From contig JAEHOE010000197.1 in NCBI GenBank assembly GCA_016858145.1, positions 107,425 through 171,424 of the forward strand: 64,000 nt of DNA. Direction: 5' to 3'. The notes beneath the pieces were generated by a model. The model searched no databases. It had not been told where the DNA came from and saw nothing but the letters and a program-made list of their open reading frames with translations. This DNA comes from Edaphochlamys debaryana. Taxonomy: Eukaryota; Chlorophyta; Chlorophyceae; Chlamydomonadales. Positions 4,606-64,000 of this stretch are shown one piece after another. The position numbers were made by a program, and so were the translations under genes. Every line of letters begins with the position of its first letter. Position 1 is the stretch's first letter.

Positions 4606-7600
4606 TCACGCCTTGCCCGACGCCCGCTTGCGTGCCTCGATGGCCTCCAGCGCCGCGCTCTTGACGGCGGCGTGGTCCCAGCCGGGGAAGTTGGAGGTGA
4701 AGAACAGCGGCTCCTGGCCCGCCTCCACCTGCGTGGGTGCGTATATGTGTGAGCGAGCAGTATGCAAAGACTCGGGACTCGGGGCTTGGGACTCGGGACT
4801 GGGGACCCATTGCACACATTGTTGCCCCACACGCCACACCTCCACAAGCAGCACGCGCCCCGAGCGGCCGCTGAGGGTGAGGTAGCGCCCGGCCACGTCG
4901 CGCGCGCGCGGCCGCTCCGTGTGCTTGCAGGCGCCGCCGTACCACACAAAGAGCTGCGGGGGAGGGGAGGGGGAGGGGAGGGGAGGGGAGGCGAGGGGAG
5001 GCGAGGTGAGGCGAGGTGAGGCGAGGGGAGGCGAGGGGAGGCGAGGGGAGGCGAGGAGAGGCGAGGGGAGGCGAGGGGAGGAGGGGAGATTGCGGAAGGC
5101 AAGTGTGAGCGCAACACCGGCACAACCTCCGCGCCCCGTGTGGACGAGCACCACGTCCTTGGCTCTCCCACCTCTGCTCCAATCATAGCTCACGCCACCT
5201 CAGCCCCGCTGCTCAACTATAGCCCCACAGCTCATTCTAGCCCCCCCCCTCCCCCGTGTCAACGAGCGTCACATGAAGGCCCTCGCCTCGGCCCCCGTGT
5301 CCAGCAGCATCACGTCCTCGTTCACCCACCCCTGCTCACACATACCACCTTGCGAGCAGCCCTGAACATACCACCTTGCCCTTCTCCCCTCTATCCCTCT
5401 GCCTCCCTCATACTGTCAGTCACCCAAGCCCACCTCGGCCCCCGTGTCCAGCAGCATCACGTCCTCACACACCCATCCCTCCTGACCCAAAGCTCCTAGG
5501 CCTTTCCTGCCCCCCTCCATTTCCCTCCCTCCCTCCCGAACCCAACCCACCTCGGCCCCCGTGTCCAGCAGCATCACGTCCTCGTTCACCAGCGAGTCCT
5601 GCGCGAAGGACGTGCTCATCTCCACCTTGAGCCCGCGGCCCGCGCAGTCGGCCAGGCGGAAGAGCTTGGGCGGCCCCGCGGCGGTGCGGCTCGTGGTGGC
5701 GGCGTAGGCGGCCTTGCCGCCCAGCGCCGACCAGAAGTCGGCCGGCTCGGAGCCCTCCTACGGGGGTGAGCGGTTGTAGGGGTGGGTGGGGTGGGGGGGC
5801 GCGGATCAGAGGGGGCTTAGGTGGGTGTAAGGAGCGCATCGCAACACCGACGACGGCTCGGAGCCCTCCCGCAGGCTTGAGGGCAGTGGGCTGGGGTGGG
5901 AAGGATTCGGGCAGCACTGGTTCGGCGGTGAGACGTGGGCAGGGCGGTGGGGAAATGGGCGGCAACACAATTCGGACACGACCGGGCAGCACGACTCCCC
6001 ACGCCATCTAGGACCCGCCACACAGGACTGCCCGACGGCGCACTCCCACCTCGACTCGCGCCACCGCGCCGCCGGCCGCCAGCGCCGCCGCCACCGCCGC
6101 CGCCACCTCCTGCTCCCCCGCGCTGCTGCCCTTGCCCAGCCACAGGCTGACGGGGCCCGCCTGCACCGGCCCCGCAGTGATCTCCGGCGCCCGCTCCAAC
6201 ACGAAGCAGTCGCCCGAGCACAGGCTGGGGGCCTGGGCGGCGACCTCGACTGGGGGTGGGTGGGGGTGGGGGGTGGGGGGTGGGGGGGCGGAAAAGGACG
6301 GGTACGGGCGAGGGGGGCGAAGCGCGCGCGGCAGCAGTGTTTGGCTGAAGCCTGGAGGACAGACTGGGGGCCTGGGCTGTAACCTCGACTGCGGGAGGCG
6401 GTAAACACCGCCTGCGCGAACGAGCCCGAGCTTCCCTTTTCTTCCCGTGCCGCCCCTCCCCCTCTGCGTGCGCCTGTGCAGTTGCCGCTCCCCCGCCCTC
6501 CCAATGCACACAGCCCGGCCTGCGATGTAGACCCCATCCCCTAGGCCCTTCCCCGCCCTGGCCTCCCCCGAGCCCCCCTCTCTTCATGTCATAATCCCTC
6601 CCTCTATGTGCGCTCTCTGCAAACCCCGCCGCGCCAGCCCTCCTCCGGGCCGCCTCCCCACCTGCGTGAGCCTGCGCCGTGGCCTCCCCCTTGACCTGGT
6701 ACAGGTGCACCCCGGGGGGGGAGCGGCCGGGCGCCTGGTGGTGCGGGCGGGGGCCGTTGCGGACAATCATGGTGCCCCTGGGGGGGAGGGGGGAATGGGG
6801 GCGAGGGGCGACAGGGGCCGGGGAAGCGTGAGGAGGGACGTGAAAGAGCCTGCTAGTAAATGCCGACGCTAGAGGACACCACCGCCCGAACATCATAACC
6901 GCTGCAAACCCTTGCCCCCCCTGCCCCGTTCCCTCCGTCCTCCCCCCCCCCTCACTTGAACAGCCTCACGAAGTGCCCCGGCTCCAGGTTCTGCTCCACA
7001 CGCACCAGCGAGCAGCGGCCCGCGTACTTGGCCCGGTGCATGTCGGCGGCCATGATGGCGGCGGCGCCCTGGGGGGGGGGGGGATGGGGGGGGGAGGGGA
7101 GGGGAGGGAGGGGGAAGGGGTATTGGGTGTTTAAAAGGGGTTGGATAGGGCATGTGGGGTGTTTGAGGGCAGCCATGATGCCGGCGGCGCCCTGCAGTTG
7201 GGGGGGAGGGGGGCTGGAGAGGAAGGGGAGGCGGAATCGGCATCCCCAGGCTGGAACCCTCCACCGCTATAGCCCTTCTCGCCCACCTGCTCAATGTTGC
7301 CGCAGTGCCTCCCCTGCCACGTGTAAACGGCATAGCGCAGGTCGGCCGTGTCTGGGGGTGGGTAGGGGGGCGGGGGGCGGGGGGTGGGGGGTGGAGGGCA
7401 TCCACGCAGCATACGCAAACGCCCAGGCTGGAGGCTCACGTGCCTTGGGGGGTGTGAGCATAGGTGGATCCATTTGCTTTCCCGTCTGATCGTCTCGGCC
7501 TCCCTTCCCCCTCCCCCTCCCCCTCATCCCCCTATCCCCCCCCCACCCCCACCCTTGGACGTGGAGTAGGTGTGCAGCACCACGTAGGAGGCTCCGTCGT

Positions 7601-10600
7601 AGAACACCCCCACCTCCTGGCGGGGCAGCTCCAGGGCCGTGGCCTGGGTCATGACCCACACCTGTCGGGGGGGGGAGGGGGGAGAGGGGGGGAGATTGGA
7701 GAGGGAAAAAGGGGGTGCTTGCTGCTGAGCGGGGTCGCGCCGACGCCAGGATGTAGGCAAAAGGGGGGAGAGAGGATCAGGAAGAGGGGTGAGCTTGAGA
7801 GAATGAGGTTGATGTTACAGCACTGAAGAAGGCGGGTGGATCCAGGATAGGCGGTGGGCGGATCGTGGGCAACGTGGCACCGCCTTAGCGCCGAGTGGAC
7901 GCGCCCCGTTATCCTGAGCCTCAGGCCCCGCCAATCCATGCCCACGGGGCCCTGGATCACCTGGATCTTGCTGGTCGTCAGATTGCCGTACGCCGCCTCC
8001 AGGCCCTTGGCGGCGGCGCCCGCCCCGGCGCCGCCAGCGGCCGCGTCGGCCGCCTGAGCCTGAGCCTGCATGGCGGTCGCCGCCTCGTCGGGGTTGTACG
8101 GCAGCTCATCTACACGGCAAAACGGGACGAGCGTAAGGCGTGAACAAGGCCCCAGGTGTCCCCCTCCCCTCCTCCCCAGCCCCTCCGTCTCACCTCTCCC
8201 GCCCCGCAACAGCTCGCGCAGGCAACCCACACAAACCACCCCCTGTCCCCAGCCCCTCTGCCTCACCCGTGCCCCGCCCCGCCACGGGCACCCGGTTGCC
8301 GAACGAGTCGCGCCCCGCGGCCGCCCCCGGCCCCGCTCCGCCCTCCCCCGCCCAGTCCGCGAAGTAGGTGGTGAAGAGCCCGGGCTCGAAGCGGGCCTTG
8401 ACGGCCTTGACCAGGGCCGAGGGGGGCAGGCCGCGGGAGGAGGCGAAGCGGCCGCCCACCTGGGGTGAGGTGAGGTTGGGGTGGGGGTTGGGGGTGGGGA
8501 TTGGGGGTTTGGGGATTGGGAGGGGTGGGGGTTGAGGGTTCGGGAGAAGTCCGTTTCAGCTGGACTGCCCATTGAACATCCTCCCCCCCACAGCGGATCA
8601 CAGAGAGAGTGGAGGATCGGGTTGAGGGCACTACAGGGGTTTGGGAACGGTTGGCATGCGGTCCGCAGCCTCAGCGAGGGACGCGTGTGTTCGCCCACCT
8701 GCAGCGGGGCCCCCAATGCCACCCACCCACCTGCAGCGGCGCCGCGGGCTTGGCTTACACGAGCATCCCTCCACACACACCCTCTCCCCCATCTTTTTCC
8801 CCCTCCCCGCGTCCCCCCCAGACTCCCCCCTCTTCTCCCCGCCCGCCCCCACCTGCAGCGGCGCCGCGGGCTTGGCGCACTCGTGCCCGGTCCACACCCA
8901 GATGCAGCCGGCGGCCAGCAGCACCAACTGCGCCCCCGGCTCCAGGGCGGCGCGGTGCAGGGGCTGCCCCTCGGAGCCGACCTGGGAGAAGCCCGAGCCG
9001 CCGCCGTCCACCTGGGGTGGGGGGGAGGGAGGGGGCGGGGGTGGGAGGGAGAGGGTTTGTTGGTGTCAGACAGACAGGTGCGGCGGCGACCAGCGAGCCC
9101 GATGCGCAGAGCCCGAGGTCCAGAGTAAAAGGTGGTAGGGGTGGTAAGGTGCCTAGGTCGAAGCCACCCGCACCTACCCAACATAGCTGTCCCTTCGACT
9201 GCCCTACCTTGTAAAACGACCCTTTCCTCCGCATAACTCCAGGGGCCCAGGCCCTTCACTCCACCCCAGGACCCAGCCCTAGCCCCCCCCCCACACACAC
9301 CTTGAACAGCTGCGGCGGCGCCAGTGCCGTACCTCACCCCTCCCAAGCTCCTTACTCTCTAGCTTCTCCCTCTTTGCTGTCCCCCACACACGCACACACC
9401 TTGAACAGCTGCGGCGGCGCCAGTGCCGCCGGCGGGGGCTTGTCCGCCTCCGCGTCCTTGATGGCTGCCGCCTCGGGGGGCGCCTTGCAGCCCAGGCGCT
9501 GGAAGAAGGCCAGAGCCTCGCCGCTCACGCCGTCGCCGTCGTCCAGCACGGCCAGCTGAGAGGGGTGGGTGGGGGTGATTTTCGGGAGGTTGGGGGGGGG
9601 TGCGGCCGGGGGGAGGGCGGGCAAGAGGTTAGGGACTCTCTTGCTGACGCGCCCATCAATTGCAGCAGGCGGTCAGCAAGCACGGCCAGCTGGGGGTGGG
9701 TGGGTGGGGGTTGAGGGGGTGGGCAGAGGGCACACGCGAAAGCGAGATGGGGGACCAAGGCCGGCAGAGAGAAAGGCGGGGAACCCGTGGGGCCCGAAAA
9801 CCCCCAGCCGTCGCCGTGGTCGTTGGTGTGGACTAAGAGTGGGGAAAGCCGAGGTTGGGCGGGGACACGAAGCGGGGCAGGCAGCCAGGGTACCGGGTGC
9901 CGGGTGCGGTGGCTGTAGGCGAGGAGGCTCTGGGTGGCAGCTCGCCCGCCTTGCCTCAATCGTGACGCCTTTACGTCACGCCTTTACCCAACGTGCGGTC
10001 AGCAGGCAAAGGCTTGCTTGCTGAGAGCCGGGGCCGGAGCCCGTTCCACCCACCTTGATGCCGGTTCCCTCCTTGAAGGCGTTGGCGGTCTCTGCGGGGT
10101 GCGGTGGACAGAGCAGGGTCGGCGCCAGAGCAGGGCCTCCATCCAGGGCACCCGCCCCCACCACACACGGCACTCAACAATAAGCCCGTCCCAATCCGTC
10201 AATCCCGCTGTGTCCCCGCTTCCCCCGGGCGTTCCCCCTCCTCCCCCACCCCGCCCGGCCCCGCTCCCCCACCGATGGCGCGCGTCTTCTCCCGGATGTT
10301 GGCCGACGAGCCGTGCCACACCCACAGCTGCCGCGCGCCTCCGTCCTCCAGCAGGAAGCAGTCGCCGTGGTTGAGCGAGGCCAGGCCGCAGGGCACCTCG
10401 AACACCTGGGGGGTGGAGGGGGGGGGGCGGGGCAGGGGAAGATTGAGCAGGGGTGGCTGAGACTAGCGGGTTGAGACTCGCATGGATTCTGCTTCTCGCC
10501 TGCAGGCCGGCCCGGCTTGTACTTGAAAAGCTCTAGCATCCCCACCCCTACCCCTACCCCCACGCCCGCCTCGCTAGCCTCCCCACCCCCGCCCCGCGCG

Positions 10601-16750: not shown

Positions 16751-19700
16751 ATGGCGCCGCCTCGGAAACTGAGTCCGAATTCGGTGTGGGATTCCTCCGC
16801 GGTCTTGGCAGCCTTCGAGGAGGAAGGCATCAAGCCTCTGCACGCGCACCGTATATGGGGGTGAGAGCTGCGGCCAGTCGCTGCGATGCGATGGGCGCGT
16901 GGCAATGCGGCTTCCTCACGAGCACCGCGCTGACGCAGGCACCTCATCCGGCACCCGGAGGCGACCTGGCACGACGTGCCGGACGTGCCTAAGGCGACCC
17001 TGGCGCTGCTGGACCGATACTTTGTCAAATTCACATCAAAGGTCGTCAAGTGCCAAAACAGTAGTGATGGCACCACCACCAAGCTGCTGGTACAGCTGCA
17101 GGACGGAATGCAGGTGGGGCTGCCGAAAGCCCGGCCTGGCGTCGGCGTCGGCGGGTTAGAGGGCGCTTGGGCCTGCGACTGTTGCACAGCGGCGCCGGCG
17201 GCCGGTGTCCGGTCCTCTCCGCGTGCCCCTCGCCCCAGAGCCTCCACGCTGACAGGTCCTCACTTCACGACCGCAGGTGGAGGCTGTGGTGATGACCTAC
17301 GAGTCGACCAGTGAGTCCCGGTAGCGGCAGCTCCTTGCCCCGGATCCGAGAGGGGAAGCCGGCCAACCCCTTGGCGGCCCCCCTGTCCTGGCGGTGCACC
17401 CGAAGCCTGTCAGCCTTCACACATAGCTTTCTAAGAGGAGGCAGCTTGGGACTGGGGAGCGTAGGCTGCCCTGCGTGCGGTGAAGTCCAACCTTTTCTCT
17501 AGTTTCAGCGCCATAGCCGAACTTCAGCCCAACCCGTACCCACAGGCCTCTCACCAATACTTCACCAGAACCACCGTTGCCTAGGTCATGAGACCCAGGT
17601 CAACCCGCTCAGCCCCCTCAATCACTCCGAATGCCTTTCCGCCTCTACCCCTCTCCCGCGCAGGCCGGGACCCGCAGGTCCTGGCCCGGGCTGGGCCCGA
17701 GGTGGACCCGCACCTCCCCATCGACCACTGCGCCGTGGCGGACGACGATGACAACGACGACGATGACGTGTTCCATGACGCAACGGAGTACGGCGATCAC
17801 GGGCCCGATCACGGGCCCGACGGGGCCCGCGCCGACGCAACGGCTGACGCAACCGCAAATGGGACAGGAGCTGGGGAGGAAGAGGGCCGGCCGGCGGCTC
17901 GCGCGGAGGGAGACGAATCGACGGAGCCCAGCTCCAGCGCGCCGTCCTCAACGGCGGGCGGGCCCAACGGAGCCGGGGCCGGGCCCGGCCGGGCCCGCGG
18001 CCGCGCCGCCGCGGCGGCGCTGGTGAACCGGCTCCGGAAGCGGTCGACGCTGTGTGTGTCGTCGCAAGTGGGCTGCCAGATGGGCTGCACCTTCTGTGCC
18101 ACGGGTGGGCGGGGAGTGGAGGGTGGGGTTGGGGGGGTTGAGGGTGGAGGGGGGGACCCTGGGTGGATAGGGGCGGCAGGCGGCAGGGGCAAGCCGCGGG
18201 AGGGCGAGGCCACGGATGGGTGGGTGGGCTGCACCCTCTGCGCCACGTGGGGGTGGGGGTGGGGGCCCAAGGTGGCCCAAGGGGGGGACGGGGGAGGTGA
18301 GGGCAGGCCAGCGGCAGGGGTGGGGGCGCAGAGCATGCGCCTGCTACGCAACCGGGGCAACTGGGGCCCCAAGTGGGGCGGCTAGCAGGCGGCCAGGAGG
18401 CCAGCCGTGGCGGGAGGGGGGGGGGCGAGGGGAGGAGGCCACGGGCCGCGCGCTCTTTGGGGAATGGCTCTGGGGGAGTGGCCAGGGCGATACCGTGCGG
18501 GAAGGGGGGCTTGAGGTAAGCACCGTGAGGGGAAGGAAGCAGCGGCGCCAGCGTGGGCCCACGTCAGCGTGGGGCACGTGGAGTACCGACTTCTTTTAGC
18601 AGCGTACAACGGACCCGAGAGCGCCTGCCTTCATCCCATGCCCTCGCCTCCCCCTTCCCAGGGACCATGGGCGTCAAGGGCAACCTTTGCCCTCCCCCGT
18701 ACCCCTCCCCTTATCTCCTTTGCTCCCCCTTGTCCCACCCCCTCTACCCCCCTCCCCCTTCCTCCTCCCCCCCCAGGCACCATGGGCCTCAAGGGCAACC
18801 TGACGGCGGGGGAGATCATTGAGCAGATGGTGCACGCGCGGGGGGTGGCGGCCATCCGCAACGTGGTCTTCATGGTGGGGGGGCAGGGGGGAGGAGGGGG
18901 GGAGGGAGGGAGGCGGAGGGGCGAGGGCGAGGCAAGGGGGAGGGCGTGGGTAAGGGAGCCTGGGGAAGGCCCATCCCTCACCCCACCCAGCACCCTACCC
19001 ATCCAGCCCCCAAGGCCCAACTCCTAACTCCTCACCCCACCCCTCCCATCCCCCACCCCCCACCCCTACCTGACCCCAGGGCATGGGCGAGCCCCTCAAC
19101 AACTACGAGCCGGTGCGGGCGGCTGTGGCCATGATGACCGACTCCAAGGGCTTCGGCCTCAAGCGGAGGCACGTGACAGTGTCCACGGTGGGAGTTCGGG
19201 GGGGTTGTACGGCACGGGAGGTGGGGGGGGGGTCCGGGGCGGAGGCACGTGACAGTGTCCACGGTGGGAGTTCGGGGGGGTTGTACGGCACGGGAGGTGG
19301 GGGGGGTCTGGGGCGGAGGCACGTGACCGTGTCCACGGTGGGCAGTGGGGGGAGGGTGCACGTGGCCGCTTGTACGGCACGGGGGGGTGGGGCGGTCTGG
19401 AGTGGAGGGAAGTGCCATGTGTTGCTGGGGGCGACGAGGGGCGATCTGCGGGTTCAGGTTGATCGATGAAGTGGGCAGGGCTTGGGGCCGGCAGGGGGGC
19501 GGAGCCCTCGTCAACCTCTCGTCAACCTCTTGTTCCCCTTCCCCCTCCCGTGTACCCCCCCCCCCCCCCCATGCTCCCCCAGGTGGGCGTCATTCCCCGC
19601 ATCAAGCAGCTGGCGGAGGACCTACCGGTGGGGACGGGGGGGGGGATGGCGGGTTCGTGTCACGGGCTCGTGTGGCAGGCTGGGCGAGGGTTGCGGGGGT

Positions 19701-27452: not shown

Positions 27453-27789
27453 TTTGGTGGGCTTGCACGGGGGAAGGGGCCGGCCCTGACTATTACTAGC
27501 TGGGGAAGAGCAAGTAGCCTCAGGTATGAATAAAGAGCGATGGCGAGCCATGCACATGGTGGGAACCCAAGCCTCAGCCGTGCGTGCCATACCCAATGGC
27601 ACTCGCATGGTGCCACAACATCTCCCCGGCCCAAGCAACCAGCAACAGGCAACCGCTAAACTCATGCCTCCCCTTGACTCCTGTGCACTGCGTTGCCTGT
27701 AGCCCCCTCCTACTCACCCCTCCCTTTCCCTCCCCCAAATCGACCGAACTGATTCCACGGAACCCTTCCATCAACCAACAACGGTTGCC
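27453..27789. other. Short spacer between galactosidase stop and PPR start
   Basis: Both flanking genes are on the minus strand. This 337-base gap holds the galactosidase 3'UTR and the PPR promoter. No poly(A) motif of the TGTAA type is visible on the minus strand and no open frame has family resemblance. Confidence 0.4.
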
Positions 27790-50750: not shown

Positions 50751-51140
50751 CCTGGCCACCTCAGTCCGTGACCAGCAGGTTGGGCTTGGCCCCTGAGGCT
50801 ATTGGCCATCCGCCTTCTCGCCTGCCCCCCGCCTGGCTGGAGGGGGGGGGACCCCCTGCACCCCCTGGCCACCTCAGTCCGTGACCAGCAGGTTGGGCTT
50901 GGCCCCTGAGGCTATTGGCGATCCGCCTTCTCGCCTGCCCCCCGCCCGGCTGGAGGGGGGGGGACCCCCTGCACCCCCTGGCCACCTCAGTCCGTGACCA
51001 GCAGGTTGGGCTTGGCCCCTGAGGCTATTGGCCATCCGCCTTCTCGCCTGCCCCCCGCCTGGCTGGAGGGGGGGGACCCCCTGCCCCCCCTGGCCACCTC
51101 AGTCCGTGACCAGCAGGTTGGGCTTGGCCCCCAGCTCTTT
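50751..51140 (-). repeat. 113-bp tandem array copying the last exon of the WD gene
   Basis: Copies of CCTGGCCACCTCAGTCCGTG start at 50751, 50864, 50977 and 51089 (spacing 113, 113, 112). The last is the genuine terminal exon with the stop at 51099. The other three repeat the final 10-11 codons and stop codon downstream of the gene, and on the coding strand each is preceded by CTCAG, a possible acceptor. Confidence 0.93.
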
Positions 51141-54100
51141 GGCGTACCTCGCCATGAGCTCCCCCGTCAGCGTCTCCAGCCGCTTCTCCCTGGGAGGGGG
51201 TTTGGGTTGGGTTGGGGGTGGGGGGTTTGAGGGGTTTGGGTTGGGTGTGTGTGTGGAGTAAGGGGCAGGGCGTGCAGGGGTGGGGTGGACAGAGGAAGGA
51301 GCAAGGAGGAAAGGAGGGCAGACGAGCCGCTTCTCCCTGGGGCAGGGGTCCGGGTGGTGGGGGTGGAGCGGGATGTGTGGGGTTGGGGTACCGGCAGGCC
51401 AAGGCGCGGGACAGAGGGTCCCGTAGGCTGAGTCAGATGCAACTGCGACACCAGACATACCGTTATCAGGCCCACACACGCTGCGCACAGCCCGAGGGAT
51501 CCCCCCCTCTCCCCTCCCTCCCCTCTCCCGTGCCCGCCTCCCTCCTCCCCCCCCTCACCTCCGCTTCCTGCCCCCCCCCTTGCTGCCGATCCGGTCCATG
51601 ATCCGCACCAGCACCGGCGCCTCCTCCCAGTCGGGGTGGATGCGGGCCAGGGGGTTGGTGTGGTGCCAGGGGGGCGACTGGGAGCGCTCGGCGAAGGGCG
51701 TGGAGGGGGCCTCCTTGGCCTTGTCCAGGTCCAGGGGGGCCAGGCGGGGCTTGCCCTGTCAGGGGGGGAGAGGGGGGGAGGGGAGGGGTGTAAGGGGAGG
51801 GGGAGGGAAGGGGGGGCCTCCTGGGCCTTGTCCAGGTCCAAGGGGGCCAGGCGGGGCTTGCCCTGTCAGGGGGGAGGGGGTGTGTGTAAGGGGGGGGAGG
51901 GATGAGAGGGATGAGGAATGCAGGCGGGATGGTGGTAAGCCGGCAAAACACATACACACACGCCCTCCCAGCCCCCTCCGCCCCCTACCCCCGGGCGCCA
52001 CTCACGTCCTTGACCTTGTCCCCCGGCGCCTGCTTGAGACCCTTCTTGGTCTCCTTGGGGAAGACCTTGGTCTCCTTGGGAAACACCTTCTTGCCCTCCA
52101 GGTCGTCGAACCTAGAGGGGGGTCCAGAAAACACGGAGGGTGAGGAGGGGGATGCACGACACAGATGCAGAAAGGTGGATGTCACGGTGCGTGGTGGGGT
52201 GGTGGTTGGGTGCAAGGGGGTGGGGGCCTCCAGGTCTTCGAACCGGGGCCCATCCGCGCCGGAGGAATACACAAGTAAGGTGGGATGTCACGACTGACCA
52301 GGGGGTGGGGGCGGGTGGGGCGGGGACCACGACACGCGGTGCATGTGAGGTTGCAGCCTGCAGGCCCACACAACGTGCCGGCCCTCCCCCGCCTCTTCCC
52401 ACCCTTGCCCCGCCTCTTCCCACCCTTGCCCCGCCTCTTCCCACCCTTGCCCCGCAGCTCAGACCCGAGGGTTCCCCTTCCGCTGACCCTCCCCCTTGCC
52501 CCTTCGCCACCCCCCCGCTTTCCCATCCCCGACGCGAAGAATCCCCACCCACCAGTTGCCCTCCGAGTCAGAACCACCAAACGTGATGTGCTTGTTGGCG
52601 GCCCGGCTCAGCTTGCCGCTGCCCGCCTCGAATGGGTCAGGCTTACGTAATGCCGAGTTGAGCTTTGGGGCGTCGGGGTCCTCCACGTCCATCTTGACGC
52701 GCTTGCCTGGGGGAGGGGATAGGGGAGGGGGTGGAGGGGGGTGGGGGGGCGTGTGTGTGTTTTGGAAGGGGGGGCCACGTGGGGTGGTGGCAGGCGGGGG
52801 GCGTCGGGGTCCGCACCTTGCCCCCCTCGCTCATTTTGTTCCTCCCTCCCCCTCCCTAAGCTCTCACCCTTCTTCTTCCCCGCCTTGGGGGCCTCCAGGT
52901 CCGCCAGCAGCCGGTCCAGGACCACCTTGCCCAGCCTGGGGGGGTTGGGCGGTTGGCGGTTGGCAGTTGGTTGGTTGGCGGTTGGTTGACTCTGTGAGTG
53001 ACTGGGGTTGCTTGCAGGGGGCTCGCAGAGCTTCACGTCTTGCCCCAAGTTACGGGTTCCCGACAAGCACAATGGGGAACCACTTGCCCTCCCCCTTCCA
53101 CAGCGTGTTCATGCGTCCTTCCCCCTTATCCCGGGGGCCCTGACCCTTCCCCCCCAAACACGCACGCGCACGCACCGTGTGGAGGTCTCGTCCTCTGGCA
53201 GTAGGTGCCTCAGGAGGGCGTCCACCTGGGGGGGGGAGGTGGAGAGAAGGGGAAGGGGTGAAGAGGAGGGGTGAAAGGGATGTGAGGCAGGCCGCAGATG
53301 CGGATGGTGAGCCCACATAGCGGTACGCCCATGACGACACTGCAGTCAACGCCACCCAGCCCGGCTGCCATTCGCAGCTTTTCGATAAGCACGTATTGTC
53401 GTACACCCGCACACGGCCGTACCTTGTACATGTACAGCTGCGTGACGCGCTGCGGTACGGCGTCGTCCTCCTCCGCAAAGTTGGAGCGCATGACCTTGTC
53501 GCACACATCACCGCCAACCACCTGGCGGTTGGTTGAGACGGTTGAAGCAGTTGTAGCGGTTGGGTGGGGCAGAACGGACGTGGCCCTCTTGGTTCCTTTG
53601 CGTGCCTTCCATCCCCCCCTTGGTTAAGACCTGCGTGGCTCCTCCCCCCCGTCCCCACACCCTTTCCCCCCCCCAAGGCCCCACCAGGTATGTGTCACGG
53701 AAGGAGATGGCGGGGTACTCAACGATCGTGCCCTGCCGTACGGTACAAACGAGATCCAGTTTCGGACACGTCAGCTATTTGTCACGCGCCATGCGCAGGG
53801 CCTCTTCACGCTTTCTCCGCCTCAGCCTTCCCATGAGTGCCCTCGGCATGCCCCCTGAGGCCCCTCGCCCACCCCCAGCCCCCTCGCTCCCTGCCCCTAC
53901 GCGCCCCACCTGAGGGATGCCCGCCTTGACCTTGACCCCACCCCAGCACCACCCCGCCTTAACCTCCGTCGGCCCTTACCTGTGGGATGCGCATCTTTAC
54001 CGGGACCATGGCCGGCCCCTTGCTCAGATCCGCGCCCATGGCCGCCAGCGCCGCCAACACCTCCTGCCGGTGCGCCGCCGCCGCCGCCGCGGCGGCGGCG

Positions 54101-57100
54101 GCCTCCGCCGCCGCTGCTGCCGCCGCCGCGGCCGCCGCCGCCGCCGTCTGCCCCGCCGTCGGCGGCGCCGCGCCCGGCGCGGGCGTTACGGGCGCCGACG
54201 GCGCCGCCGTGCCAGGGGCGGCGGCGGCGGCGGCGGGGTCGACGGTGGCGGGCCGTGGGGCCATTTTGGGGAGGGGCGGGGGCTCGATGCAGCAGGCCAG
54301 GCCGAAGCCCTGGTCGGCCTTGGGGCCCATGAGCTCGGCCACGGGTTTCTCGTCCAGTACATTGTACCAGAAAATCCGGGGCCGTACGGCGGGGGTGACG
54401 AACAGCCCGCCGTTGCCGTTGCCGCCGATGCCGCCGCCCGCCGCGCCGCTGCCGGCCGGCCGCGCCAGCTCGCCGTCCGAGGAAGTGTGACCGCGGCAGA
54501 TGCAGAGCGCGAACGGCTCGTTCGGCAAAAAGTGTACCTCGTGGATCGCCTGGGGAAACTCGTACGGTTTCTGGCTGGAATCTTCCGGTTTTACCACGTC
54601 AGCAATGAAGATGTGGCCCTCGGCGGACGCGCACATGAGCCGGTGGGCCACGCCGTTTACCCATCCCAGTGCCGTGATCGCGCCCTTCATCCGTGGCAGC
54701 GTCTTAGTCACGCAGCACGAGCGATCGTCCCAGATGAAAACCGTGCCGTCCGCGAGGCCCCAGGCCAGGGTTTTGCGGTCCGACGTGGCGGCAACCGCCG
54801 TGATTGCGTGCGGGAACAGCCAATCCCGGGACATGGGCGCCAGGGACGGGATCACGGGCGGCGTGATCGGCGGCTTATAGATCCCGAAACCAGATCCAGA
54901 TCCGGATCCGCCGGGGCCGTCGGCCTCGGCTGCCGCCGCCGCGGCGGCGGCGGCGGCGGCGGCTGCCGCCGCCGCGGCGGGGCCCTGGGACTTGGAGCCC
55001 GCACCTTTCAGTGGCGTCGTGGGCTTGGCGGCGGAGGTTTCGGCGGCGGGCGCCTCCGCCGCCGCCTTGGCCTTGGCGGCGGCGGCCGCGGCGAAGTCCA
55101 CCAGCAGGAGGCGGTTGGCGTTCTCCCACCACACGTACGCGCCGCGCGCGCTCTGCGGTGCGGCGGGTCGTACGGCACACGCACACACAGCACACGTGTC
55201 GTACGGCTCCCGCCCTCACAATGCCGATCCTCTCAGGCCTCAGCCGCTCCCTCCCTCCACGCCTTCACCCTTGGCAGCCCAGCCCGTCCCCGCGGTCCCC
55301 GCATGCCTGGCCCTCCTGGTCTCACCAAGTTCCCCAACCCAGCCCTCAATCCGCCCACCATTCCCCCTCCCCCCCCACCTTGTGGTATCGGTCCGAGTGC
55401 GGGTTCTTGTCGGGCCGCTGCTGCATCTGCCACACCAGGTGGGAGCGGCCCAGGCCCGACACGCCCAGGCAGAAGGCTGGGGGGGGGGAGGGGGGAGGCA
55501 AGGGTGGCAAGAAAGGGGGGGGAGGCAAGGGGGGTGGGTGAAGGGGGGGGAGAGGTGGGAGCGGCCCAGGCCCGACACGCCCAGGCAGAAGGCTGGGGGG
55601 GGGAGGGGGGAGGCAAGGGTGGCAAGAAAGGGGGGGGAGGCAAGGGGGGTGGGTGAAGGGGGGGGAGAGGTGGGAGCGGCCCAGGCCCGACACGCCCAGG
55701 CAGAAGGCTGGGGGGGGGGAGGGGGGAGGCAAGGGTGGCAAGAAAGGGGGGGGGAGGCAAGGGGGGTGGGTGAAGGGGGGGAGAGGTGGGAGCGGCCCAG
55801 GCCCGACACGCCCAGGCAGAAGGCTGGGGGGGGGGAGGGGGGAGGCAAGGGTGGCAAGAAAGGGGGGGGAGGCAAGGGGGGTGGGTGAAGGGGGGGGAGA
55901 GGTGGGAGCGGCCCAGGCCCGACACGCCAAGGCAGAAGGCTGAGGGGGGGGAGGCAAGGGTGGCAAGAGGGGGGGGAGGTTGAGAGAATGGCCCAGAACC
56001 CCGTGCCGGAACCCCCTCCCTGCCGGCCCCCAGGCACCAGGAGCTGCCCCTCCCGATTCCCTCCCCCCCAGCCCCAACCCCCACCCCCAACCACCCACCC
56101 TTGACCCCCGCCACCGGCAACCTCAAAATCTCGCTCAGGCCCGTGGGCCCAAACGATGCCAGGGACATGGCAATCAATGCACTGACGTTCTCCAGCGCCA
56201 CGTTGGGCACCGGCAGGGTGACGCCAAAGAGCTGCAGCGCGCCGCTGCCGAAGCACACGGCCAGGTGGCCCAGGTTGTCGGACCAGGCGATGCGAGCCGG
56301 GGCCGAGGCGTCGTCGGGGTCGACGGTTAGCGGCACCTGGGGCGGTTGGCGGTTGGCGGCGGTGGTTGGGGGTGGTGGTTGGGGTTGGGGGTGGGTTGCA
56401 TGGGGCGGCGGGGCCGCTCGCGGCAACGCTAAAGCCTTCCCGGTAGTTGCCCCAGCCCCCCCTGCCCCTGACACGTACCCGCGTGTCAATACACACCCCT
56501 TCCCCCCCCGTTACCCCCCCGCACCCCCCACCGAGGCCAGCAGCTGCATGCTGCAGTTCTTGATGTCCACCTCGTGCAGCGACAGGGCGGTGCGCGAGGC
56601 GGCGGCCAGCAGGCGCCCGCTGGTGGACAGGACCAGGCCCGCCTCCTGCAGGGGGGGGTGGGCGTGTGTCGGGGGGGGGGGGGGGGGAGGAGGGAGAAGG
56701 GTGTGTTTGGAATAAGATAGAGGTGGCGTTGGGAGCTCTTGTTGGCACCACCCCAGCCTCTCGTCCAATCCCCGCACACACGCTCGCCACGCCCCGCCCG
56801 GCCAGGAGAGCCGTCCTGTCACGGCCGCGCAGTGCGCCGACGCCACACTCCCATACTGCCGTGCGGCACTGCACTGCCGTACATCACGCACCGCACGCCG
56901 GCCGTACCCACCAGCGCCGTGACCTGGCTGCTGTGCGTGCGGTCCACGAAGGAGCTGTTGTCGCGGGCGCTGTGGAGGCGCATCTCGCCGCTGGGGAGCG
57001 CCAGGGCGGCCAGGCCGGCTGGGGGGGGGGAGGGGCGGGAGGGCAAGAGGAGGGGTGACACGGGTGTTTGTTGCTGAGCGGGATCGCGCCGACGCCAGGG

Positions 57101-59056
57101 AATCCTTGCATGGATAGGGGACACGGGGGGCGGGGCGGGGGGGTGATGGAGGGAAGGGGAGTGTGTATGGGCATGGCGGGGGTAGGGTGGGGTGGGCAGG
57201 GCCGCTGGGGAGCGCCAGGGCGGCCAGGCCGGCGGGGAGGTTGTCGGGAGGGGCCGGGGGAGAACAAGGGGTGCGGTGCGTGGACGGGGTGGAGAGGGTA
57301 GGTCGTCTTGCCCAGACGGAATCCCGTACCAGGACCTAGGATGTCCCCCACCCCGCGCCCCTTCAGCTGGGCCCACTTTGCCCACGGGCAGGGCGGGCAG
57401 GGCCGCTCAGGCCTGGGCAAACGCATCAGCCCCCCCCCCCCTGCGGCCCACCTATGCCCACGGGCAGGAAGGTGGCGGTCTCGTGGGGCGCCTCCATGAC
57501 GGCGTGGGGGGCAAAGGTCTGGGGGGGAGGGGGGGGAGGGGGAGGATGCTCCTCGGACGGTTTGAAGTGAGGGAGGTCCAGGTGCGTGTGTCAGGGAGGG
57601 GGCAGGGAGCAGGGTTCCAGATCCAGGGCCCACGGCTGGACTGCAGCCACGAGGGGTCGCGGGTCAAGGGGGCGCCGGCCCGGATGGAGGGACGGGCCGG
57701 TCACAGCCCCCCCCCCACACACACGATCCCCAGCCAGCCCCGGCCTCGCGGCCAGACGACTCTTGGCCGGACACGGGGCCGGACTCGCACCCGGACTCAC
57801 GACCGGACTCGCAACCGGACTCGCAACCGGACTCACGACCGGACTCGCAACCGGACTCACGACCGGACTCGCAACCGGACTCGCAACCGGACTCACGACC
57901 GGACTCACGACCGGACTCGCAACCGGAGCTGAGCTCATCTGCCGCCGCTCGGCTGATGCCACCGCGTGCTTCCCCGCCCCATGGGCTCGTTCGCCCGGGG
58001 ATGGGGCAGCTGGGGCTTCGGCGGGGCTTCGGCCCCAGGCAGAGCGCCCACCCCCACGCCCAATCGCGGCTGCCACTCTTAGGCTAGCTGACACGTGGGC
58101 AAGGATATGGGGAAGGGAATGCTTGGATCCGGGCTGGATCCGGGCCGGGGGCACGTCCGGTTCCGGAACCTTGCGTGTCCGCATGGGGAAGGGGGCACGG
58201 CTGACGCGCAGTTTGGCCGAACCCTCCCCCCCCTCCCTCGTCCCCCGCGTCCTGGACCTCCTGTCACGGGGCTGCCCGGTACTGGTCCGTAAACCCCTTC
58301 ATCCCCCCCCCCCCCACCTAACCCCCCCGCCCCCCGCTCCCCTTGTGGCGGCCTGCCAATCACCTGTGCCCGTTCCCGGTGCCCTTGTGCCCCTCCCCCT
58401 GCAAGGCCGCCAGCCCAGGTGGCTCGCAATCCCAGGTGCTGCCCCCCTCCCTCGCCGCTCCCCCCGCGGTCCCGCACGCCCAACCATGAGGCCACAAACG
58501 TCAGAGCCCGTCCGCCCCACCCCCGAACCCACCCCCGCCCCTCACGGCCCCCGTTGACCCCACACCGCGGGGACCGGCCCCCGTCCGTTGGCTCTCTGGG
58601 CTGCCCCTCTGCCCCGTGTCGCTCGCGCTGTGTGCGGGGAGGAGGGCTGCTGCCCTGCCCCAAAGCCCCTGGCTTCCTGACACCCCGGGGACTGGACCCC
58701 TCCGTTTGAACCTGGGCTGCCTTTCGGCCCTGTTCCAGCTCCCTAGCGCTGGGGCGGGCAGGCCCCCGCCCCTGGCAGCCTAGGATGCCCCGCTGCCCTC
58801 TAATAGCTCCCTAGAGCCGGGGCAGGCGGAGGCAGGTCCCTGAGCAACACCGTTCCCGTACAGACGGGGGGGCGAACCGCGGACCCACCAGGTCAACCCG
58901 CGAGGCGTCCTCCACTTTCCGCTGCTGCTCCCGCTTGCCGATGAGGTCCACGACCTGCTCCACGATCTCCGCGAGCACCTTGTCTATCATGCGGAAGGGC
59001 TGCGGCAGCTTGTCCACAGCCCCCGCGGGGTCCCATAATGTCGGGAGCGGCGGCAT
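51099..59056 (-). CDS. WD-repeat protein resembling WDR93
   Basis: Fifteen exons, 5' to 3': 58889-59056, 57452-57518, 56912-57018, 56532-56645, 56099-56336, 55379-55476, 53980-55152, 53685-53732, 53423-53521, 53176-53225, 52868-52935, 52553-52706, 52006-52111, 51559-51755, 51099-51189; 925 residues, in frame. Start MPPLPTLWDPAGAVDKLPQP then FRMIDKVLAEIVEQVVD recalls the opening of WDR93 (recollection, not a search). Beta-propeller blades are visible: GLAALALPSGEMRLHSARDN, ARIAWSDNLGHLAVCFGSGA, ITAVAATSDRKTLAWGLADG then TVFIWDDRS, ALGWVNGVAHRLMCASAEGH. Long alanine tracts split the large exon. The C-terminal third is lysine-rich and probably disordered (KVFPKETKVFPKETKKG, an internal duplication) and ends KPNLLVTD. 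WDR93 relatives are mostly ciliary; a flagellar role is inference. Confidence 0.82.
51706..51875 (-). repeat. Duplicated acceptor junction of WD gene exon 14
   Basis: CCTTGTCCAGGTCCAGGGGG with the following CCAGGCGGGGCTTGCCCTGTCAGG (exon start and acceptor on the coding strand) occurs near 51719-51762 and again about 117 bp away near 51835-51879 with a single substitution. Confidence 0.9.
55437..55955 (-). repeat. Five tandem 116-bp copies of a WD gene acceptor junction
   Basis: AGGTGGGAGCGGCCCAGGCC with CGACACGCCCAGGCAGAAGGCTGGGG starts at 55437 (genuine), 55553, 55668, 55784 and 55900. On the coding strand each unit ends with a C-run, AG and the first 41 exon bases (AFCLGVSGLGRSHL). Units differ by only a few bases. 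Confidence 0.95.
57772..57930. repeat. 12-bp satellite in the first WD gene intron
   Basis: About a dozen units of CCGGACTCGCAA or CCGGACTCACGA stand head to tail. They are ordered in a mixed higher pattern and contain no spacers. They lie in the 1370-base intron between exons 1 and 2 of the WD gene. Confidence 0.92.
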
Positions 59057-59601
59057 TTTGGATTGTTGTTATACCGTTACTACATCAGCAGCTCGCGCTG
59101 ATTGTTAAGGAAAGCGTCAAGGGCGCGTGTGGCCGAGGAGAGCTCCCGCGTGTGGGCATGTGCCGCTATCCTGCGTCTAGCATTCAGAGCATATATGCGG
59201 CAAGACAGATGAGCTTGCGTACTATCAATACAGTGCTTTCAGGTGCACTCCGGTGCCGGGTGCATCCAGCCTTCGAAGCCCACGCCTGATCGAGCAACAC
59301 CACCAGCGACCGCCGAGGCCTTCAATGTGCTCCTACATTATTTCTATCATAGCGTCACCAATTTACCTCAGGTATAGCACCTATCCTTGCCGGAGGGACA
59401 CAAGAAAGGGCCCTTGTCTGGCCCCAAGAAGCGCCCTACCCGCCAGTCGCCCTACCTTGACTTACCATACATCACAAGAGCACAAATCGGTTGCACAACT
59501 AGCTGTTAGGCCAGGCGGTCGACCGGATGGCTGCCATGGAGGAGGGCTCTCGACCCCGCCGGAGAAGCGGCTGACGACACCGGCGTCACCCGACTGTGGC
59601 C
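59057..59601. promoter_or_regulatory. Divergent promoter region, WD and ankyrin-like genes
   Basis: The two genes start 545 bases apart and run outward. The stretch is clearly less GC-rich than the rest (for example TTGTTGTTATACCGTTACTA at 59061-59085, and ATATATGCGG near 59190). No single core element can be assigned; promoter function is inferred from gene geometry and composition. Confidence 0.45.
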
Positions 59602-62600
59602 ATGAGCATGGGAGTCTCGCGGGACGGGATGCATCCCGCGGCGTCGCCCGTCGGCGTGCGGGGCGCACCCGTGCTGGGGCCTGGCGCCATCGATGCCGCC
59701 GATGCCCCAACCTCGAGCTCCGCCGGCCGGCCTTGGGGCTCCGGCGAGCCCGAGCCCCATACCTATGATGATATAGCTCCAGACGATGACAGCCACAGCC
59801 GCGGCTCGTCCAGCGGACTCGAGGACCTGGAGCCGGGAGGGCAGCCATCCACCGGGGTTTCAGGCGGTGCTCCGCGAGACCTGAACCTCTCGCACCTCGC
59901 CACCCCCGTCCCACGTGACCCCTCCCTCCGTGCCACAGACATCTCCCCCCTCGCCGCCCCCAACGGCTCCATGCCCCTCCCTCCCCCCGGCGTGATACGC
60001 ACGCCCAAGCGGCACGTGCAGCTGCCCGGATCCGCATCCGGCGAGCCCTCCCGAGTCCCCACCAACGCCTTCGGATCTGGTTCCGGAACCGACGCCGGCC
60101 CGGCCCCTGGATCCAGCGCGATCCCGGGCCAGATCGTGAGCTTCACCGCGGTGAAGCCCCTCAGTCGGGCGGGCCGCGGCGGCGGCGGCATGACTAACGC
60201 CAGTACGATGTGGCAATCCATGGCCAGATCCGCCGTGGGTACGGCAGATGCGCTGCCGTCTGCGCCGCCGGAGCTGCCGGAGCTGCACCAGGTGGGGGGT
60301 CAGGAGGGGCATGGGAGGGGACAAGAGATGGGGGAGAGGGATGGGGAGGATCAGAGAGGGGTCAGGGGTGGGGAACAGGTGCAATGGGTTGGGCCCCCAA
60401 TCGGGGGCTTCGCCAGGGGGGTCACAAGGGCTGGGGGGGGGGGTCGAGGGGGGGGTCAAGGTTGGCTTGAGGAGGGCCAGTACCGCAGATAACTGCAGCT
60501 CTGTGTGTACCCATAGGCGGGGCCGGGGCCGGGGGTAAACTCTTAACGACACTTCGATCTTTGAACCTCCTTCCAAGCTCTTCATGCTTCAACCTCGTTC
60601 GTTACCTACAGGCGGCCTGGGATGACGACCTGGACCAAATGGTGGAGCTGTTGCGCGCCCGGGGCGCATCGGAGCCGCTGGGGCCGCTGATCTGGGTCAA
60701 CGCGCAGCTGTACGGCACGGCGGGCGCAGCAGCCGGCGGCGGCGACGACGCCCTTGACGGCGAGGACGCCGGCCGCGGCGGCGGCGGCGAAGATGAAGAG
60801 CAGATGGTCGCGACGGCGCCGCCGCCGCCGCCGCCGGGCACGGCGGGCGGGCGGCGGACGGTGCTGAGTGCGGCGGCGCCGCCGGCCCAACCGCCGCTTG
60901 CCGCCACGCCGTCAACCGCCACCGAGGCCCTCCAGGCACTGCTGCGGGGGGACTTCCTGAGGCACGCCTGCCACCCCCTCACCATTGCGGCGTTCCGGGG
61001 TAACGATCTCATGGTGGAGGAGGTGGGTGGGCCAATGGGGTGTGTGTCGAGGGCCCCACCTGGAACCATGGGCTGCGGGGCCCTGTTCTGGGGTTCAAGT
61101 GGGGCGGGGGGTAAGGGACAGGCAATGGGGTGTGGGGCAGGGGTCCCCTGTAGAGATAGGAATAGACTAACGCCGGGCTTGCGCCCTAGCGTGGGTTAAG
61201 GAGGCAGGGTGTCCCCTGCCCCGTCATGGGTGGGGAGGCAGTGACCTGGTGGGGGCGGCGGGGAGGTGGGTCCTGCGGTCTGGCTTGGAGTACGAATTTC
61301 GCAAGAGAGCGCAGCGGGGCCCTTTCTTGGGGAGGTTCGGGACCGGGTAAGGGAGGGAATGGCCTCATGGTGGAGGAGGTAGAGGGGTGAGGAGATGCTC
61401 GGCTTCAAGCCGAGCCACCCTTTTGCGCCCTTTCTGGCAGCATCAGCCCCGTCCCGTCGCCCCGTCCCCCGCCCCTCCGCACCCTCCCCCACTCCCGCCA
61501 AACCTCCTTCCTTTTCTACCCCACCACCCCCCCCAGCTCATCAAGGCCATGCGGGCCGACGCCCGCCTGGTGGGTCACGAGCACCCCCTCACCTGGGCGC
61601 AGCCCCCCCGCGAGGACTGGCCCCCAGGCTGCCCCTGGGTCACCCCCCTGGCGGCGGCGGCCCTCAGCGGCAGCGACGCGTGCGTGCGCCTCATCGCGCA
61701 GGTGGGGAGTGGCGATGCGTAGGGTGCTTGCGGGGCTTGCATCGTGGTTCTCACTTGTAAGGAAAGGCTAGTTTGGTCTGGAAAGGTCTTGCAAACCGTG
61801 CGTGCGCCTCATCGCGCAGGCGGGGCCCACCCGGCCCACACGGCTTGTGCTGGTGTCTGGGCCCAGATGGTGCTTTTGGTGCTTGCGAGGGTTGCAGTGT
61901 GGTTATAAGGAAAGGCTTGTTTGCCTGGGATGAGAAGTTGTGGCTTGTGCTGAGGGTGGGGGTGGGGGTCTTGCAAGGCGTGCGTGCAACTCATCGCACA
62001 GGTGGGGCCTCATGTACGTTTTTTGGCAGCCTTTGTCGTACATGTCGTACACCCTGCGTCCTGGAGAGTTATGCCCGCTAGGGGTCCCTAACGCTCCGTA
62101 TCCCGATCTCCCTTGTCGCGCTCCAACCCTCCCGCCCCCCTCTGCTCCCCCGCCTCTCCGCCCCCCCCCCCCAAGGCGGTGCACCGGCGGCGGCTTCAGG
62201 AGGACCGCAGCTGGTACGGCTGCTTCAGGTGCGTGTGTGTGTGGGAGGGGAAGCAGGGCAGGGGGTCCTTGGTGTACGGAGATGCCGGCGGTATACGGCG
62301 GTGTATCGTGATGCGATGCGAGTCAGCTGGTACGGCTGCTTCAGGTGCGCGTGTGTGGGGGAGACCAGGGCAGGGGTGGGCTTGGGGTACGGACACCACC
62401 TCCTCCACACCCTACCTGGCCCAGACCGCCGAGGCAGTCGCCTCCCTCATCCCGCATCTCTCCCTACCCTCTCAACTCGAACAGCACCCTTCACAACACT
62501 TCATCCATGCCCCCCCCGTCCCCCCCCCCCAGGTTCCGCGCCCTAGTCGTGGCCCAAACCGCCGAGGCCGTGGCGTCCCTCATCCTGCACGGCGCATCCA

Positions 62601-62842
62601 ACACGGAGACCCTGCGCCGCCTCTGCACCTCAGCACGCCGGGTGGCCAAGGAAGAGGCCCTCAGCGGCGGCGGCGGCGGCGGCGGCGGCTGGACCGGCGG
62701 CGGCGGCGTGACGTCGCGCTCGCACCTGTCGGCGGGGCCATCGGGCGCGACGCTGAACGGCGGCGGCGGCGGGGTGCTGACGCGGCGGAGCTCTGCGGGC
62801 TCGGATCTGGCGGCGGGTCAGGCATCGCAAGTTTGGGGGTCG

Positions 62843-62874
<32 letters not shown>

Positions 62875-64000
62875 AGGCAGTCCGATGGACAGCCGCGCCG
62901 CCAGCGGCTTCATCAGCGGCGCACCCAGCGGCGCGCTGTCGCTGGCGGCGGCGCACAGCGGCGGCCTGGGCTTGGGCCTGGGCCCGGGCCCGGATGCGGT
63001 GCAGCCCCGCGGATCTCGCCTGCCGGGCCCCGGACCCGGATCCGGATTCGCTCTCGGACCCGGATCCGGGCCGCCGCAACTTGCCGACAAGACTCCAGAG
63101 CTGTTGCTGTTTCGGTCCCGCCTGTTCCACGACTCTCTGGGTAGGCCCCTCGAGACGGCGCTTCATGCGTTCAGCCCAGAGACGCTGGCAGCACTGGGGG
63201 CGCTGACAGCTTTGGTCGAACGAGGGCTGGAGCCGGATCGCTTCCTGTCGCACGCCGAGCACAGGTGGGTGCTGTTAACCTGCTTTGAAGATAAACAGGA
63301 AATGAAGCAAGCTAGAGGGCAGGACAGGTACCCAGGCTGTTGCGTGGAGGCGGATGCACGGGGGTGGGAAGTACGAAGGGAAGGGTGAGGGGTGCAGGGG
63401 GTTAATGATCCGGCGCTCACAGTGCGTCTCCATACCGCCGACGCCCTTACAACCGGTACGCCTCTCATGCCTCATCCCGTCGTACTTGCCGTACATGCCG
63501 TACATGCCGCACAGGCACATCTCCAGCACGTCCCTGCTCGTGGTCGTGGTCCGGGCCTACCGCCACGCCCTTGCCGCCGCCAGCGGCGGCGCCGCCGGCC
63601 TCTCCGTCTTCGGCGGCGGCGCCGCTGGCGGCGCCGCCAGACCCCTTTCCGGTGGCGGCGCCGCCGGCAGGCCCCTGTCCGGCGGCGCCGCTGGCGCCGA
63701 CGGCGACGGCGTGGCGGGGGCCGGCAGCACCGGGTCCCTGGGGGGGTGGGCGATGGGGGGTCCGGGGAGTGACCTGCTTTCGGCGGCCCACGAGGTGCTT
63801 CCCATCCTGGTGGCTGAGCTGTTGCAGAAGGGGGCGGCGGTGGACGCGGCGCCCAGGCTGGAGAGCCAGCAGGTGGGGCCCGGGTTGGGCCCGGGCGGGG
63901 CCTGGCCTGTGCCTGGCTGGGGTCTGGGTGGGGCTTGTTTGGGCGGAGCTTCCGCTACCGACGAAGGCTGCCGCCGGCGGGGAGCCCTCGCCACTGCTTC
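59602..64000 (+). CDS. Ankyrin-like repeat protein, 3' end beyond window
   Basis: Exons: 59602-60291, 60612-61022, 61537-61701, 62176-62228, 62533-63264, 63515-63872, then an intron to the edge; every join is in phase. The ATG at 59602 starts MSMGVSRDGMHPAASPVGVR. The N-terminal 200 residues are Ser/Pro/Gly-rich and look disordered. Helical-hairpin repeats follow: QAAWDDDLDQMVELLRARGA, HPLTIAAFRGNDLMVEELIK, WVTPLAAAALSGSDACVRLI, LGRPLETALHAFSPETLAAL with ALVERGLEPDRF, and LLVVVVRAYRHALAAA. The T-P-L-x-x-A-A and L-L-x-x-G-A patterns match ankyrin repeats, although they are irregular and separated by Gly-rich linkers. The last exon repeats ARPLSGGGAAGRPLSGGAAG. Function unknown. Confidence 0.68.
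61680..62005 (+). repeat. Three copies of ankyrin gene exon 3 donor junction
   Basis: TGCGTGCGCCTCATCGCGCAGG begins at 61681 (genuine), 61799, and in diverged form TGCGTGCAACTCATCGCACA at 61981. Spacing is 118 and 182 bp. The text between copies is also alike (AAGGAAAGGCT, then TCTTGCAA before each copy), so whole units were duplicated. Confidence 0.9.

Follow-up and report, generated by a model that had tools for sequence, protein, structure and literature searches.

Exon edges recur as direct repeats in the adjoining introns of the green alga Edaphochlamys debaryana

Why should the edge of an exon, splice site included, occur a second time within the neighboring intron? The question is raised by a 64-kb stretch of Edaphochlamys debaryana DNA (contig JAEHOE010000197.1, positions 107,425 to 171,424; here called the window), where a first-pass annotation had described such copies, spaced by about 107-118 bp from the genuine edge. 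The window has a GC content of 69%, and the closest named matches of its triosephosphate isomerase are from volvocine algae (Pleodorina, C. reinhardtii, Gonium, Volvox, and Tetrabaena; 74-78%). We analyzed the window together with 24 systematically placed 10-kb stretches from other contigs (240 kb, labeled L0xx, e.g., L012, L017, and L022) and ~18 kb of paralogs, all from one genome, and used the whole assembly (141.9 Mb, 502 contigs) for genome-wide searches. Exon edges are predictions of a coding model self-trained without supervision on all 304 kb, and they may be ~20 bp off.

Exon edges are copied into introns well beyond the window, with a clear excess over controls. When the last 45 bp of each modeled exon edge were sought in the adjoining intron, 53 of the 989 edges had a copy with a score of at least 15, against 2, 1, and 1 in three controls (another exon's edge, reversed edge, and reverse complement). 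At the stricter score of at least 18, there were 41 such edges, and the controls gave 1, 0, and 0. Six of the 53 rows came from a proline-rich repeat exon in L017 and were dropped from the catalog and from most later counts, and two more (L022 and L009) were removed as duplicates, leaving 45 distinct pairs of edge and copy, 38 of them with offsets within 70-190 bp. A recognizable copy is thus found at ~4-5% of the modeled edges (38-45 distinct pairs per 989). Of the 38 pairs, 22 lie in the window, and the other 16 come from 9 of the 24 sampled stretches. All are direct repeats that combine the exon side and the intron side of a single junction, except that 7 blocks end before the modeled junction. 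The catalog retains the best copy per modeled edge, so that the copies at 5429, 19705, 33933, and 62208 fall outside the 38. A direct-repeat scan and the display of 26 pairs, curated by hand separately from the model-based catalog, gave the same picture: the exon-edge block, mostly including the splice site, recurs in the neighboring intron. The claim that donor and acceptor edges are both affected holds (20 and 18 of the 38 pairs), and the copies do grade from identical to decayed, since edge-copy identity runs from 100% downward and 48 mismatches are found among the 856 exon-part bases of the copies.

The spacing between edge and copy is less uniform than had been claimed. Offsets of the 38 pairs range from 79 to 188 bp, with a median of 116 bp. 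Seventeen lie at 107-118 bp, where smooth fits predict ~24% (about 9 pairs; P = 0.003 to 0.005), and the best 12-bp range placed anywhere gives P = 0.022 to 0.027. The same range holds 7 of the 16 pairs at independent loci outside the window and 10 of the 22 within it; the other 12 window pairs, at 79, 99, and 122-144 bp, have no counterpart in the first-pass annotation, which listed no pair outside 107-118 bp. This range is therefore a moderate mode near 112 bp and not one unit length; a chromatin- or repair-linked period, another idea of the first-pass annotation, is a conceivable source of it. Spacings of 45-78 bp were included in the edge search, and no edge had its best match there. In the intron at 5286-5546, the direct-repeat scan gave the further offsets 147 and 264. 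The individual offsets reported earlier were recovered at 5429/5546 (117), 18657 (115), 20316 (112), 30231 (113), 33933 (116), 42348 (109), 45135 (107), 61679 (118), and 62208 (116), at a pair starting at 19705 (108), and in two arrays found by Tandem Repeats Finder (TRF), of 113 bp at 50748-51131 and of 116 bp at 55437-55954; the 114 of a gene labeled methyltransferase and a second 117 of a gene labeled WD were not recovered as separate matches. As to the gene labels, Sel1/HRD3 is supported, while matches to WD40 are weak.

Are junctions themselves favored? Local copies with a score of at least 15 were found for 25 of 676 edge windows, 30 of 854 exon-interior windows (mostly at spacings of 174-186 and 528, i.e., a few repeats sampled repeatedly), 56 of 1,462 noncoding windows 60-250 bp from exons (a class to which the edge copies and arrays belong), and 16 of 769 noncoding windows more than 250 bp away. 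The reversed controls gave 1, 0, 0, and 0, respectively; L017 and low-complexity windows were left out of this comparison. Copies of any spacing are thus about as common per window away from junctions, but those at 107-118 bp are not: this spacing was seen in 9 of 676 edge windows, compared with 1 of 854 exon-interior and 1 of 769 far noncoding windows. The features specific to edges are this spacing and the confinement of the copies to the last 15-67 exon bases. TRF, run for periods of 50-300 bp, returned 30 rows, several of them for one array; some noncoding arrays touch an exon edge and others (L004, L005, and L014) do not. In simulations, 35% of random duplications of these sizes straddle one edge and 39% stay noncoding, so that, among duplications leaving coding sequence intact, 47% span a junction where introns are ~200 bp long. 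Straddling is therefore largely expected from geometry. The earlier argument that slippage should not favor junctions is accordingly weakened, and it is the spacing of 107-118 bp that stays specific to edges.

The repeated block is short and sits on the junction. With L017 included, copies were found for 51 of 945 segments covering the terminal 45 bp of the exon, compared with 6 of 741, 7 of 495, and 6 of 316 for the next 45-bp segments. Analyses of positional identity, microhomology, and simulated duplications used 39 rows (38 distinct pairs). Per-position identity between edge and copy is 0.79-0.90 at positions -24 to -1 and falls to nearly background around -45. Toward the intron it drops fast, and identity often ends within 15 bp of the junction; wider homology, above that of 95% of mismatched pairs, is kept in 8-12 of the 39 rows, compared with ~2 expected. 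The direct repeats are 15-99 bp long. A minimum of 56 bp for the intron part was considered and dropped, since the donor at 42415 leaves ~42 bp.

Some loci preserve more than the edge. At position 687 of L012, the duplication of a whole unit is nearly intact (unit of 103 bp, 97/99 in a gapped alignment), and whole units are also duplicated in the arrays at 50748 (113 bp) and 55437 (116 bp). Gapped alignment revealed eroding whole units at 51755, 28077, and 61701 and at position 3948 of L012. The lengths of the introns point in the same direction. Introns with a copy have a median length of 338 bp (n = 30), compared with 199 bp for those without (n = 380; L017 introns left out of both groups), and once the offset is subtracted the median of the former is 198 bp (P = 0.94). 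The unduplicated state was found in paralogous introns of two gene families. In a family of P-type ATPases, the intron of the C9 gene is 616 bp long and has, besides two clear copies, another one at null level, whereas that of the C21 gene is 147 bp long with none detected; in the second family, a 512-bp intron in L025 carries both donor and acceptor copies, and its counterparts in L030 (206 bp) and L031 (198 bp) have none detected. Since the length excess equals the offset and paralogs polarize two introns, each event seems to add one whole unit to the intron. The suggestion of intron growth by local tandem duplication, put forward in the first-pass annotation as one of several, is thus supported by decaying whole units, by intron lengths, and by unduplicated paralogous introns.

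Two SERCA-like P-type ATPase paralogs indicate what may happen to a copy afterwards. They have the intron, the position of the copy, and the filler (the sequence between edge and copy) in common, the filler being 83% identical over 223 bp, so that the copy is probably older than the split of the paralogs. Nevertheless, edge and copy both read AACCAG|GT in one paralog and AACATG|GT in the other. From these two nucleotides in one pair of genes, it is likely that edge and copy exchanged sequence after the split, as in tandem arrays; alternatively, the same spot may have been duplicated more than once. In L022 (3641-3810), a middle and more decayed copy lies at ~82 and a better one at 164, as judged by eye, as if the older unit were proximal to the exon. 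An intron of the two paralogs (L022:3600-4140 and C9:997740-998150) also differs in position by 14 nt, lying after NAIVR in one and before it in the other, which is an apparent case of intron sliding; we found no tie between this shift and a copy.

The outer splice sites appear to be those in use. With them, the Sel1/HRD3 product aligns without gaps over 156 amino acids to a Sel1 protein of Tetraselmis, crossing four introns, two of which contain copies, and it shows 8 gap positions in 210 when compared with HRD3A of Scenedesmus. The outer site is presumably used in the other genes as well.

The copies are probably best explained by small tandem duplications straddling splice junctions, followed by exchange between edge and copy. 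Duplications of ~80-190 bp at junctions, with a mode of ~112 bp, would occur in this genome. When one spans a splice junction and the outer junction is still spliced, the mRNA would remain unchanged and the intron would grow by one unit, with the resulting order of exon edge (e), filler (f), and copied edge (e'). The segment e-f-e' would then act as a tiny tandem repeat, in which unequal exchange or slippage could expand the array to 3-5 units or shrink it, and the same process would keep e' similar to e. The intron past e' would lie outside the repeat, unconstrained and rich in G runs, and it would diverge until its homology to f was gone, leaving an exon edge and its splice site stranded within the intron. 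How the exchange occurs and how general it is are matters on which we extrapolate from the case described above. We also infer that selection on splicing removes duplications that are very short or reach deep into the exon.

Several observations weigh against this account. Duplications away from junctions are not clearly rarer per window. The exon part of the blocks, which reaches at most 67 bp, is much shorter than expected under uniform breakpoints (probability ~1e-10), although the modeled edges are uncertain by ~20 bp. The ends of the blocks showed no microhomology in the 39 rows, and only 7 of the 38 offsets are in frame. In most pairs, homology over the whole unit was not detected. At 42348, a block identical at 78 of 80 positions is accompanied by 29 bp of the unit that are unalike; the filler resembles the flank past the copy with z > 2.5 in only 4 of the 26 hand-curated pairs, in which the blocks are 88-100% identical, and the filler resembles the far flank with z > 3 in 6 of 36 pairs. 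Plain duplication of whole units with no later exchange was rejected for most pairs, given that the filler shows no relation to the far flank even in pairs with identical edge and copy. Because the filler cannot be aligned in most pairs, the exchange step is needed, and the evidence for it is the one paralog pair with its two nucleotides.

Such unrelated fillers and far flanks could instead mean that an ~80-bp sequence, be it a mobile element, an introner, or captured DNA, was inserted at the junction, duplicating the exon edge as a long target site. This would also add the whole offset per event, and at 57018 a dispersed intronic motif does sit between the copies. The existence of whole-unit duplications and the results of genome searches make this origin quite unlikely. 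In searches that skipped very common words, four of five fillers matched their own place only and the fifth also matched a paralogous intron, so that none showed a dispersed family and the introner-like unit proposed by the first-pass annotation is not supported. Moreover, repeats of 15-99 bp exceed the target-site duplications of 3-9 bp given for some introners (PMC9860276). Another way to leave filler and flank unrelated is replicative template switching, in which 25-45 bp around the junction would be copied ~80 bp away into an existing intron before the polymerase returned. The absence of filler homology in most pairs and the frequent end of identity within 15 bp of the junction fit this idea. 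However, the excess length of the introns fits the full offset (P = 0.94) better than the ~40 bp expected from a short templated block (P = 0.019), paralogous introns differ by hundreds of base pairs, and the microhomology signal was not seen. Insertion of short templated blocks is therefore disfavored by intron lengths, and we consider template switching improbable.

The copies stay exon-like while the filler decays, and their spacing has a floor at 79 bp, as could be expected if they served as decoys or as alternative splice sites and selection held them at a fixed distance. Yet the splice dinucleotide is intact in 27 of 31 copies, compared with 27.6 expected under neutral decay, a level of retention that gives no sign of function, and paralogous introns do without copies; maintenance by selection is thus very unlikely. 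An error of assembly or polishing also has to be weighed, since G-rich introns are difficult for short reads. For the published Edaphochlamys assembly, PacBio reads were assembled with Canu, Arrow was used for correction, and three rounds of Pilon polishing followed (PMC8226300). The mismatches between edges and copies, together with the position and filler of one copy that are common to paralogs on different contigs, make an artefact highly improbable. Returning to junction-straddling duplication with exchange, a stronger version can be formulated, in which duplication is linked to the boundary itself, a physical step of ~112 bp (due, for example, to chromatin or to replication through G-rich introns) sets the unit, and exchange between edge and copy is ongoing; in this form, the process would be one of the chief drivers of intron length among these algae and would continually supply shifted or new splice sites. 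We regard this version as tentative and rather doubtful.

The copies in the window are distributed over many introns and both strands. On the minus strand, the donor edge at 5546-5583 recurs at 5429-5466 (offset of 117 bp, 38/38 identical) and again, with GT changed to GC, at 5286-5326 (offset of 264 bp, 41/41 against the real edge). Acceptor edges at 6216-6256 and 7045-7071 recur at 6355-6395 (139 bp, 35/41) and 7168-7194 (123 bp, 25/27), respectively, and a short acceptor-edge copy, weak by its length, lies at 5854-5869 (of 5743-5758; 111 bp, 16/16). Donor-edge copies follow at 8726-8754 (of 8848-8876; 122 bp, 29/29) and at 9294-9329 (of 9393-9428; 99 bp, 36/36), where the filler is unlike the flank past the copy. 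Further along the same strand, an acceptor-edge copy with a still alignable intron part is found at 28180-28211 (of 28050-28081; 130 bp, 29/32), a donor-edge copy at 28364-28413 (of 28490-28539; 126 bp, 46/50), and another acceptor-edge copy at 30344-30383 (of 30231-30270; 113 bp, 38/40). The shortest offset found, 79 bp, belongs to the donor-edge copy at 31663-31689 (of 31742-31768). A donor edge at 33233-33253 is copied at 33103-33123 (130 bp, 21/21), and the copy at 33933-33965 (of 34049-34081; 116 bp, 29/33) was assigned to a donor edge by eye, there being no modeled edge, and is outside the 38. The array at 50748-51131 has 3.4 units of 113 bp, the first of which extends into the exon edge at ~51098; that at 55437-55954 has 4.5 units of 116 bp, and its first unit extends into the acceptor edge at ~55476. 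Between them lie an acceptor-edge copy at 51812-51874 (of 51705-51767; 107 bp, 61/63), in which the homology of the unit goes on with indels, and a short copy near an acceptor edge at 52798-52812 (of the exon block 52667-52681; 131 bp, 15/15), which is weak and ends 25 bp before the modeled junction. The last one on this strand is the acceptor-edge copy at 57201-57237 (of 56987-57023; 214 bp, 36/37), with a dispersed intronic 35-mer in between.

On the plus strand, a donor-edge copy is found at 18225-18258 (of 18081-18114; 144 bp, 29/34), and acceptor-edge copies are found at 18657-18686 (of 18772-18801; 115 bp, 28/30), 20316-20345 (of 20428-20457; 112 bp, 28/30), and 45135-45167 (of 45242-45274; 107 bp, 30/33). 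The Sel1/HRD3 gene contains two donor-edge copies, one at 41123-41169 (of 40998-41044; 125 bp, 42/47), whose outer donor at 41022 is supported, and one at 42457-42536 (of 42348-42427; 109 bp, 78/80), with the real GT at 42415 and an exon part of 67 bp. Near the end of the window, a donor edge at 61679-61707 is copied at 61797-61825 with GT changed to GC (118 bp, 28/29); the filler of this pair is homologous to the later intron, with an insertion, and an older third copy starts at ~61979. The copy at 62324-62363 (of 62208-62247; 116 bp, 38/40), again assigned to a donor edge by eye and outside the 38, shows similarity running into the intron, and a copy near an acceptor edge at 62417-62456 (of the exon block 62550-62589; 133 bp, 35/40) ends 17 bp before the modeled junction.

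Other features of these introns were noted along the way. The dispersed intronic motif is ~50 bp long, with the core TTCCCTGGCGTCGGCGCGATCCCGCTCAGCAACAA, and has 388 genome matches with at most 3 mismatches, 57 of them perfect, and none in the reversed control. Copies lie in the window at 57062-57111 and 7712-7750 (both on the minus strand) and in the sampled stretches at L022:4042-4089, L022:6668-6717, L019:6986-7027, and L006:7083-7131. Eight of the 10 local matches with a modeled gene sit 20-66 bp upstream of an acceptor of the same sense; placed in this way, the motif resembles the 3' terminus of a family of introner-like sequences and may include the branch site. Among the open-licence papers searched, none named both Edaphochlamys and introner. 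Introns are also G-rich at both ends when read outward from the exon, with a mean GC skew of +0.21 after donors (n = 497) and +0.29 from acceptors (n = 506), which means that the sense strand is G-rich in the 5' part of the intron and C-rich in its 3' part. Finally, the region at 24204-24480 of the window lies within a high-copy repeat with at least 40 matches on other contigs (86-99%).

Events of this kind have relatives among known systems. Minisatellites consist of head-to-tail units that expand in copy number and evolve in concert. The head-to-tail arrays of 3.4 and 4.5 units resemble them, but here the repeats are anchored in a constrained exon edge and are mostly of two copies. In a potato gene, a duplication across an intron-exon boundary created a new intron (PMC4974935). 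The case is alike in that the 3' end of an intron and the start of the exon were directly duplicated, with splice signals taken from the parent junction; it concerns one locus and a new spliced intron, whereas here 38-45 pairs among 989 edges, donors as well as acceptors, enlarge existing introns. Work on Drosophila likewise links intron change to tandem duplication, with new intron positions arising by sliding or tandem duplication and near intron pairs (PMC2891723), but there coding sequence is duplicated and positions are new, while here the duplication straddles the junction and affects intron length. Introners, too, produce mass intron change, in algae among others, and are dispersed related sequences (PMC9860276); the five fillers searched in this genome, in contrast, are local and have no family. 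In the open-licence papers searched, mostly at title level, we recognized no description of such duplication at this scale in algae. The kind of event is already known, and what is new is its density, its occurrence at both intron ends, the growth of introns, and the apparent exchange.

The comparative study of Edaphochlamys and Chlamydomonas points out that introns are conspicuously long in all six annotated core-Reinhardtinia, that no advantage of this length is known, and that its driver is likely ancient (PMC8226300). Duplication across junctions is a countable source of intron length, contributing ~116 bp per event to a typical intron of 200 bp, and the duplication of exon edges may help to explain the unusually long introns of this algal group. 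It also leaves spare, near-identical splice sites within introns, from which intron sliding, alternative splice sites, and intron gain could draw. If exchange between a coding edge and its intronic copy is general, intron sequence could feed back into coding sequence.

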